Assembly (NCBI RefSeq): GCF_022095675.1
Contig: NZ_JAHYSG010000057.1
Coordinates: forward strand, 1-64,000
Direction: 5' to 3'
DNA: 64,000 bases
Origin: Dactylosporangium sp. AC04546
Lineage (GTDB): Bacteria; Actinomycetota; Actinomycetes; Mycobacteriales; Micromonosporaceae
Both the position numbers and the translations under genes were made by a program. The notes under the pieces were generated by a model. That model was not told the origin of the DNA. It worked only from the letters and a program-made list of their open reading frames with translations, and made no database searches. Shown here in pieces: positions 36,819 through 46,498 of this stretch (its first letter is position 1; every line of letters begins with the position of its first letter).

Positions 36819-36835
36819 GCACAGGAATTGGTGAA

Positions 36836-36862
36836 GCCCGGGGGAGTATCCATCCCCCGGGC
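36836..36862. terminator. Bidirectional terminator
   Basis: A 10-bp perfect stem GCCCGGGGGA / TCCCCCGGGC with a short loop, between the membrane-protein gene and the convergent tRNA-like RNAs. A further 7-bp hairpin (36868-36896) precedes it on the minus strand. Confidence 0.75.
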
Positions 36863-36902
36863 CTCGGCGTGCCGCCCAATTGCGCACACCGGCACGTTTG
36901 AA

Positions 36903-37004
36903 GGGCACGGGTCAGCTTCAGGGCGTCGCGCTCTTCGATTGAGCTATCGGCCCAGGAAAGAGGGCCGAGCGGGAGTTGAACCCGCAACCTCGACGACGGT
37001 GCCC
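36903..37004 (-). ncRNA. Circularly permuted tRNA-like RNA, copy B
   Basis: Read 5'-3' on the minus strand: closing helix GGGCAC (36999-37004, pairs 36903-36908); CGTCG (36991-36995), pairing CGACG (36924-36928) as an anticodon-type stem; V region AGGTT; T-arm GCGGG-TTCAACT-CCCGC (36969-36985); TCGGCCC (36962-36968); eight-base loop TCTTTCCT; GGGCCGA (36947-36953), its perfect acceptor partner; TA; D-arm GCTC-AATCGAA-GAGC; then CGACG. This is every tRNA arm, but with the 3' half first. No upstream copy of the 5' half exists. Joining at the anticodon-side internal loop plus cutting the TTTCC loop would give a normal cloverleaf. Confidence 0.7.
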
Positions 37005-37039
37005 GCGCTCGGTCGATCCGGTGTTCGGCGGCGAATGCT

Positions 37040-37188
37040 CAGACTGGAGCGAGAAGTTGAGTTTGTGTCTCGGCTCTCGCGGCTGCCTCTTCCCCTTGGG
37101 CTACGCCGTCACGGAAATGGCGGCGGGAGGATTCGAACCTCCACTGACACCGCGCGGACCTGTCAAACTGAGCCTCAGGTTCAGTCTG
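37040..37188 (-). ncRNA. Circularly permuted tRNA-like RNA, copy A
   Basis: Same order as copy B with unrelated stems: stem GCGGT (37149-37153) pairing GCCGC (37079-37083) with one G-U; V region; T-arm GGAGG-TTCGAAT-CCTCC (37126-37142); CGCCGCC (37119-37125); eight-base loop ATTTCCGT; GACGGCG (37104-37110), pairing the acceptor with one mismatch; TA; D-arm GCCC...AGGC; GCCGC. Outer helices AGTTTG/CAAACT (37164-37169 with 37060-37065) and CAGACTG/CAGTCTG (37182-37188 with 37040-37046) close it. A GGCGGCG upstream (37199-37205) could pair the acceptor perfectly, but no D or anticodon arm fits in that order. Confidence 0.65.
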
Positions 37189-37217
37189 CGCTCCTTGCGC
37201 GCCGCCAATCCTAATCG

Positions 37218-37949
37218 CTACCCGAACAGGAAGCGAAACACTTTCTCGCCGGTCTCCTGACTGACCACCTCGGCACCGTTGGCCTCCTCGCGGGCGAACT
37301 TCACCGCTGCCTGGAGCTTCTCGACGCGCTCGACGAGCTCGTTGACGCGCTTGGCGGGCAGCGCGCCGGAGAACTTCACGGTCTTCCAGTAGCCGATGAC
37401 GACGTCCTCGTAGTAGACCTCGACCTGCGCCGGGTGCTTCTCCGTCGCCTCGGCCTTCACGTGGTTGCGCGGGATCTTCTTCGTGCGCGTCGTCTGGGTC
37501 GGCTCGGTGGCGTAGCAGTCGGCGGACGCGTCGTAGGCCCAGGTCTCGGCGGCGTCGAGCACCGGCAGCTTGCGCACGAACGTCAGCAGGTCGACCAGCT
37601 GCTTCTCCAGGAACAGCAGGTAGGACACCGGCACGTCGCGCAGCAGCGGCTCACCGTCGACCACCACGTCGGCGCGGGCGGCGCAGTTGGTCCAGTCCTT
37701 GGTCGCGGTCACGTCGAACAGCCGGGTGAGGATGGTCGCCGTCTGGCGCAGCACCTCGTCGGCCTTCACCTGGACGCGGGTCGACTCGGGCGGCAGCTGC
37801 TCGCCCTCCTCGTCCTTCGGACGGTACGTGCGCGAGATGCCGGCCAGCAGCGCCGGCTTCTGCAGGACGTGGTGGGCGTCGGTGAGCTCCTGGAAGGAAC
37901 GGGACTTGACGCCCTTCTCCACCGCGATGATCTGATTCAGCTTCGTCAT
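37218..37949 (-). CDS. DUF7873-like protein in tRNA-like operon
   Basis: A 243-residue soluble protein recalled from many actinobacterial genomes (start MTKLNQIIAVEKGVKSRSFQELTDAHH; internal TRVQVKADEVLRQTATILTRLFDVTATKDWTNC; RTKKIPRNHVKAEATEKHPAQVEVYYEDVVIGYWKTVKFSGALP). The C-terminus is helical. No catalytic motif is recognised and its role is unknown to me. It lies 53 bases after the class I UAG tRNA and 30 bases before permuted RNA A, all on one strand, which makes an RNA-related role worth testing. The ATG lacks a strong Shine-Dalgarno. Confidence 0.8.
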   Translation of the reverse strand: MTKLNQIIAVEKGVKSRSFQELTDAHHVLQKPALLAGISRTYRPKDEEGEQLPPESTRVQVKADEVLRQTATILTRLFDVTATKDWTNCAARADVVVDGEPLLRDVPVSYLLFLEKQLVDLLTFVRKLPVLDAAETWAYDASADCYATEPTQTTRTKKIPRNHVKAEATEKHPAQVEVYYEDVVIGYWKTVKFSGALPAKRVNELVERVEKLQAAVKFAREEANGAEVVSQETGEKVFRFLFG

Positions 37950-38001
37950 AATGCGCCCGAGTGTACGAGCGCGATGCGCGCCGAAAACAGCCAATAACGT
38001 G

Positions 38002-38074
38002 TGGGGCCGGTGAGAGTCGAACTCACACTGGCACGGACCTAAACCGTGTGCCTCTGCCATTGGGCTACGGCCCC
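38002..38074 (-). tRNA. Class I tRNA with anticodon UAG
   Basis: A complete cloverleaf: acceptor GGGGCCG/CGGCCCC with A73, D-arm GCCC-AATGGCAG-AGGC, anticodon stem CACGG/CCGTG with loop TTTAGGT (anticodon UAG, reading CUA), V region CCAGT of only five bases, T-arm GTGAG-TTCGACT-CTCAC. CCA is not encoded. Bacterial tRNA-Leu is normally class II with a long variable arm, so this short-arm form is atypical and its amino acid identity is uncertain. TACAGT at 38091-38096 may be its -10 box. Confidence 0.85.
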
Positions 38075-46422: not shown

Positions 46423-46498
46423 GTGGCTGTAGCTCAGTTGGCAGAGCACCGGGTTGTGGTCCCGGGTGTCGTGGGTTCAAATCCCATCAGTCACCCCA
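46423..46498 (+). tRNA. tRNA-His (GTG)
   Basis: Acceptor GTGGCTG/CAGTCAC, D-arm GCTCAGTTGGCAGAGC, anticodon loop TTGTGGT (GTG), T-arm CGTGGGTTCAAATCCCATC region, discriminator C with CCA encoded (46496-46498). The base before the acceptor is G, as needed for the extra G-1 of tRNA-His. Confidence 0.97.

Follow-up and report, generated by a model that had tools for sequence, protein, structure and literature searches.

The DUF7873 (PF25283) gene in the window, the whole analyzed stretch of 64,000 nucleotides, is followed on the same strand by two tandem tRNA-mimic modules, each with its T-arm ahead of its acceptor stem and D-arm. The structure of this twin element is conserved among relatives, its presence coincides with that of the DUF7873 gene, and it is separable from Ro60 and its Y RNA, YrlA. 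We regard it as probable that the element specifies the RNA partner of the DUF7873 protein, a Ro60-independent variant of the Y-RNA kind with two tRNA mimics, the function of which we infer.

Organization of the locus

The modules were located with a descriptor composed of T-stem, TTCRANN loop, acceptor 3' strand, linker, acceptor 5' strand, TA or TG, and D-arm. It matched the window at three sites, modules A and B (scores 14 and 16) and a weaker one (score 13). The order along the minus strand is DUF7873 gene, module A, module B and a hairpin with a GGNYA loop, with the following parts:

37218..37949, minus strand: DUF7873 (PF25283) gene, 243 aa, proposed partner (Pfam 394.5 bits against a cut-off of 27, E 2.7e-118 over 37218-37940; start and stop read in the sequence)
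about 36833..37196, minus strand: whole conserved RNA region consisting of module A, conserved joint, module B and 3' hairpin (probable ends)
about 37046-37194, minus strand: module A, permuted tRNA-like (descriptor and sequence)
37189..37194, minus strand: module A outer helix, 5' strand GGAGCG, pairing with 37046-37051 (88.0% of cells paired, 3/6 pairs changed on both sides)
37126..37142, minus strand: module A T-arm (descriptor; 100% of cells paired, n=33, in a stem for which the descriptor itself asks for pairing)
37119..37125, minus strand: module A acceptor stem, 3' strand CGCCGCC (7/7 pairs with both-side changes in relatives; one mismatch in the window copy)
37111..37118, minus strand: module A linker ATTTCCGT, 8 bases (descriptor and sequence)
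37085..37110, minus strand: module A acceptor 5' strand, TA and D-arm (D-stem pairs invariant, n=33)
37046..37051, minus strand: module A outer helix, 3' strand CGCTCC (alignment and sequence)
about 36871-37032, minus strand: module B, permuted tRNA-like (descriptor and sequence)
36883..37026, minus strand: module B match of covariance model R1 (129.1 bits, E 1.5e-28, with the window copy among the 30 model sequences)
37018..37023, minus strand: module B outer helix P1, 5' strand CACCGG, pairing with 36887-36892 (100% of cells paired, 5/6 pairs with both-side changes; outside the descriptor)
36969..36985, minus strand: module B T-arm (100% of cells paired, n=30, T-stem pairing being asked for by the descriptor itself)
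36962..36968, minus strand: module B acceptor stem, 3' strand TCGGCCC (7/7 pairs with both-side changes)
36954..36961, minus strand: module B linker TCTTTCCT, 8 bases (descriptor and sequence)
36930..36953, minus strand: module B acceptor 5' strand, TA and D-arm (descriptor and alignment)
36887..36892, minus strand: module B outer helix P1, 3' strand CCGGTG (shortly 3' of a conserved CTTAAACG-like segment)
36833..36865, minus strand: 3' hairpin of 13 bp, loop TGGATAC (GGNYA class), probable 3' end of the RNA (class present in 82/85 distinct loci versus 2.7% of shuffles)

Both modules lie on the minus strand in the permuted arm order described by the original prediction, with the T-arm and acceptor pairings it had counted. 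Module A has a T-arm GGAGG/CCTCC with 5/5 pairs, an acceptor stem with 6/7 pairs (one A-C mismatch, absent from relatives L003-L005), an 8-base linker, TA and a D-arm, and module B has a T-arm with 5/5 pairs, an acceptor stem with 7/7 pairs, an 8-base linker, TA and a D-arm with 4/4 pairs. The proposed extent of 36903 to 37188 placed the modules correctly but was too short for the conserved element as delimited above. Stems in the anticodon position, which had been proposed for both modules, can be drawn by eye in A and B, and the predicted fold of B contains one, while the TTTCC reported for both linkers is there in the window but is not general among the linkers of relatives. Single-sequence folding favored B in the expected form (z -3.23) and gave A no clear support (z -0.63, with 53 of 200 shuffles folding equally well), so module A rests on comparative evidence. 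Antisense open frames at 36828-37260 on the plus strand read GVEPATS and GGFEPPL and are likely spurious proteins derived from T-arm sequences.

Conservation and covariation of the twin modules

The aligned sequences had been selected with the descriptor, which requires the T, acceptor and D stems to be paired and so raises the share of pairing in these stems. In the alignments, 97.8% of the cells were paired for module B (n=30; 75.5% when shuffled, 37.6-43.9% in slid controls) and 92.7% for module A (n=33; 82.7% when shuffled). None of 500 shuffles reached the share observed for module B. Counted over its six given helices as five runs, in a structure written from the same alignment, 26 of 30 pairs in module B had changed on both sides, among them all seven acceptor pairs. 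The recurrence with compensatory changes that had been predicted is seen in relatives. Both-side changes affected 12 of the 14 pairs of the module B outer helices, which lie outside the descriptor. Module A exhibited such changes in 15 of 28 pairs; its acceptor stem covaries at 7/7 pairs, its D-stem is invariant and the inner part of its outer stem is weak (helix 3, 71.7% paired). A scan of all column pairs (39 sequences, pairs at least 90% standard) ranked the same helices at the top.

The 3' hairpin of relatives has 9-14 bp with a variable stem and a GGNYA loop; the frequency listed above for this class refers to a pattern first noticed in the same loci in which it was later counted, and includes some hairpins located 70-105 bases further on. 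A hairpin before module A, in some cases with a TGAGC loop, was observed in several relatives. The acceptor stems of A and B are variable at all seven positions, a pattern that gives no hint of a fixed amino-acid identity.

Distribution of the element

Of the 7,999 candidates scored (clustered at 90%), 7,213 proteins belonged to the DUF7873 family at an E value of 0.001 or below. Scanning genome contigs with the DUF7873 protein confirmed at least 551 relatives, from which 80 loci were kept, and the viral scan kept a further 29. The 109 related loci (882,256 bases) contained 170 descriptor matches compared to 2.4 expected from dinucleotide shuffles. As many as 160 of these were located within 750 bases after the DUF7873 gene on the same strand, and the other ten elsewhere, several of them in tRNA arrays. 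Within 560 bases after the gene (n=108, L003-L109 and the window), 64 loci had two matches, 32 had one and 12 had none. Long linkers explain some of these misses, and the covariance model found a full-length module B in three of the 12 (L014, L025 and L034). According to record titles, loci with modules belong to Actinobacteria, Chloroflexi (L025, L082), Armatimonadota (L017, L065), an Acidobacteria MAG (L033), a Deinococcales MAG (L014) and phages.

Among 50,697 phage records, 73 contained DUF7873, with Vibrio (29), Gordonia (12), Rhizobium (12), Klebsiella (7), Serratia (6), Arthrobacter (3), Pseudanabaena (2), Rhodococcus (1) and Microcoleus (1) as hosts. Eight of the nine phage loci examined had a descriptor match after the gene, which in L145 was found only 600-800 bases on; the Microcoleus phage had none. 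Several phage copies are situated inside tRNA arrays, which such phages may carry in any case. The annotated tRNA-Sup-TTA of Klebsiella phage FBKp24 (L147, 5009-5088) overlaps module B and is likely an annotation artefact.

Association with DUF7873

The covariance search of actinobacterial genomes envisaged in the original prediction yielded full-length R1 matches to module B (60.6-142.6 bits) in seven of 296 genomes, the same seven that carry DUF7873, each shortly after the gene and on the same strand. All remaining matches of this search, which passed stricter filters (E 1e-5 or less), scored at most 47.2 bits. The chance of a 7/7 overlap would be about 3e-14 if the genomes were independent, which they are not, since six come from a single genus and the remaining one contains the window.

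Applied to 71 DUF7873 loci outside the model, R1 reached at least 53 bits in 57. The 14 loci without such a match were L007, L011-L013, L016, L020, L028, L088, L104 and L145-L149, of which L088, L104 and L145-L148 do have descriptor matches; the best matches in the genomes of L007 and L020 were weak (34.2 and 41.0 bits). This search left out 18 loci (L004, L005, L008, L019, L024, L031, L032, L035, L037, L042, L097, L098, L101, L103, L106, L108, L110 and L111). Apart from DUF7873 and the frames overlapping it, the largest cluster of neighboring genes was present in 16 of 107 loci.

The gene and the RNA could travel together without direct contact of their products, but the unlinked cases speak against this. 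Four Herpetosiphon genomes and one Chloroflexi MAG lack a module after the gene and have a full-length R1 match (85.7-105.8 bits) elsewhere; the only DUF7873 match of each genome is located on a different contig or at a distance of more than 100 kb from the RNA. The clearest indication of a partnership in trans is this retention of an unlinked RNA.

Proposed partnership and its implications

The locus would encode a non-coding RNA of roughly 350-400 nt that is presumably transcribed with both tRNA-mimic modules, each presenting a permuted T-arm, acceptor stem and D-arm, with a conserved outer stem in the place of the anticodon arm as in bacterial Y RNAs. The DUF7873 protein may bind this RNA, perhaps at the outer stems, the joint or the GGNYA hairpin, and by analogy with the role of Ro60 for YrlA the two could form a stable RNP whose tRNA-shaped ends would dock or mislead tRNA-handling proteins such as nucleases and tRNA-processing enzymes. 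The AlphaFold model of DUF7873 (mean pLDDT 90.2, pTM 0.65) had no confident likeness to solved or viral structures in the libraries compared, and an RNA-binding role is accordingly not shown by the fold. That some phages carry the RNA within a tRNA array points to a function during stress or infection, in which tRNA or structured RNA would be protected or policed.

If the partnership is real, a large family of unknown function would supply the protein component of a conserved RNP whose RNA can be named, and Ro60 would not be the only protein with which the Y-RNA design, a tRNA mimic mounted on a handle, is employed. Given the placement in some phage tRNA arrays and the bacterial spread, one could directly test for roles in protecting tRNA, in RNA quality control or in conflict between phage and host. 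The literature searched on DUF7873, YrlA, permuted tRNA and phage Y RNA, with most subscription papers outside its scope, contained no description of the DUF7873-RNA pair.

Is the acceptor end opened?

The alternative that survives best, possible though on balance doubtful, concerns processing: RNase P and RNase Z would open the linker, leaving a two-piece tRNA-like RNA with a real NCCA 3' end that is held by the outer stem. Immediately after the acceptor 3' strand, NCCA was read in 27 of 100 distinct copies from bacteria and in 23 of 45 from phages, while at other linker offsets it occurs at 16 of 854 bacterial and 10 of 548 phage positions. Both modules of Klebsiella phage FBKp24 have ACCA, a Vibrio phage copy has GCCA and a Rhizobium phage copy CCCA, and many linkers are longer than a hairpin loop needs. 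On the other hand, NCCA is missing in 73 of the 100 bacterial and 22 of the 45 phage copies, some linkers have just 4-6 nt, and in several phages the CCA can be paired within the linker (by eye). NCCA may be a processed end or a relic of descent from a tRNA; it is also found in 4 of 26 Ro60-type copies.

Permuted tmRNA is a two-piece RNA with a permuted tRNA-like domain in bacteria and a removable segment at the acceptor, features that this form of processing would share. The element differs from it in having two modules, and tmRNA itself was rejected, with RF00023 scoring 14.7 bits over module A compared to a gathering score of 47.

In the furthest-reaching version, which we consider unlikely, an undescribed RNP of DUF7873 and the twin RNA, found across several bacterial phyla and phages, would have its acceptors cut by tRNA-processing enzymes into real NCCA ends, making each module a two-piece permuted tRNA without anticodon for non-translational use. 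Real CCA ends would mean that ordinary processing enzymes produce a permuted tRNA without an anticodon. We know of no example of such a molecule, and the literature searched, mostly without subscription papers, contained no recognized one.

Relation to YrlA and Ro60

The partnership with DUF7873 has also to be weighed against the reading that the modules are ordinary Ro60-binding YrlA Y RNAs lying away from the Ro60 gene, which we judge improbable. YrlA (RF02553) has been described as a tRNA mimic (PMC8394870), and its structure line in RF02553 has the same order of T-arm, acceptor hairpin and D-arm closed by an outer stem, again without an anticodon. This is the bacterial precedent for the arm order that the original prediction did not know of. 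The tRNA-like core of our modules is likewise closed by an outer stem, Ro60-type genes are present in the window's own genome, and RF02553 matched module B over its full length (36.9 bits, E 4.7e-6; A unlisted). This match missed the gathering score of 69, a cut-off that is not decisive because two Ro60-type copies of the same genome (41.2 and 39.9 bits) also fail it. The assembly containing the window (G000) is listed at 11.54% contamination, and genome-level counts for it need care. One Ro60-type YrlA of this assembly (L112, contig C99; 119.2 bits) has no TROVE gene on its contig, with TROVE being found on C115 and C54.

In these genomes, many of the Ro60 genes are accompanied by adjacent YrlA copies of their own, and these differ in the upstream stem. 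TACTTC occurred upstream in 21/21 aligned Ro60-linked copies and in 0/159 DUF7873-linked modules, and GTGCG in 20/21 and 11/159, respectively, with 26/159 DUF7873-linked modules having the latter on the 3' side. The modules do not share the outer stem of the Ro60-linked YrlA copies present in the same genomes. The covariance models separated the two groups as well, as R1 scored at most 48.8 bits at 24 Ro60-related loci, compared to the 57 of 71 DUF7873 loci at 53 bits or more. The Ro60-type model R2 gave 119-149 bits at L001, L112 and L122 (all within its training set), 75.3 at L125 and lower values at L002, L132 and L138 (45.1, 32.2 and 13.1), while DUF7873-linked modules reached at most 47.9 bits (window B 35.3 and A 33.2, core only).

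Of the 80 genome loci, 48 DUF7873 genomes were tested for TROVE (Ro60). It was detected in 28; in the other 20 neither Pfam nor an Rsr profile, which found the three controls, gave a match. With the descriptor or R1, one or more modules were found in all of these 20 except L007. Across 26 genomes, R2, trained partly on the positives, scored 122.1-141.9 bits in six Ro60-positive genomes and at most 59.9 in 20 Ro60-negative ones. Relative to YrlA, the DUF7873-linked RNA is thus distinguished by two tandem modules, another outer-stem sequence, the GGNYA 3' hairpin, DUF7873 in place of Ro60 as the partner gene, occurrence in genomes without detectable Ro60 and more frequent retention of NCCA. A Ro60 Y RNA in the strict sense was rejected on the basis of the R1 and R2 scores, the 20 of 48 DUF7873 genomes without detectable Ro60 and the differences in the upstream stem.

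R2 matches of 58-60 bits that lack the stem's outer end were observed in three genomes with undetected Ro60 (G034, G037 and G046) and are perhaps further permuted tRNA-like RNAs. The viral contig L090 (6096-6593) carries DUF7873, its RNA and three Ro60-type YrlA-like copies (94.2, 84.0 and 56.5 bits).

Permuted and ordinary tRNA genes

The original prediction had read the modules as permuted tRNA genes, and such genes, spliced or circularized and cut into translational tRNAs, now appear very improbable. The reversed halves with T, acceptor and D arms are there, every arm of a tRNA except the anticodon loop is present, and NCCA is enriched after the acceptor 3' strand. However, only 11 of 81 copies of A and 19 of 77 of B have T at position 33, so that a normal anticodon loop is absent, the outer helices covary where this loop would be expected, and the acceptor stem is free to vary. 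As described in PMC3978253, 34 permuted tRNA genes are known from six algae and one archaeon and are tied to a bulge-helix-bulge and splicing endonuclease. They share the position of the 3' half ahead of the 5' half, and the archaeal ones encode CCA (PMC3978253), as many module copies do, but our modules have conserved outer stems, and inspection of their termini by eye revealed no bulge-helix-bulge.

We dismiss as next to impossible that the modules are junctions between ordinary tRNA genes or what is left of such genes, or that a linear tRNA gene covers A: the descriptor does respond to tandem tRNA clusters as well (L115-L119), ARAGORN called a linear tRNA over A in 11 of 109 loci and the weak tmRNA match lies over window A, but no tRNA was called at A or B in the window (ARAGORN; Rfam at gathering threshold), covariation connects the two acceptor strands across the linker in A and in B, and linear calls are missing in the other 98 loci.

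The tRNAs found in the window by ARAGORN and Rfam are two, at 38001-38074 and 46423-46498. The first of these, a tRNA Leu(tag) on the minus strand just upstream of DUF7873, has a short variable region, unlike a normal tRNA-Leu, and is present at this position only in the Dactylosporangium relatives L003-L005. At 1120-1324 on the minus strand of the window, the actinobacterial sRNA Ms_IGR-5 was matched by Rfam with 96.5 bits.
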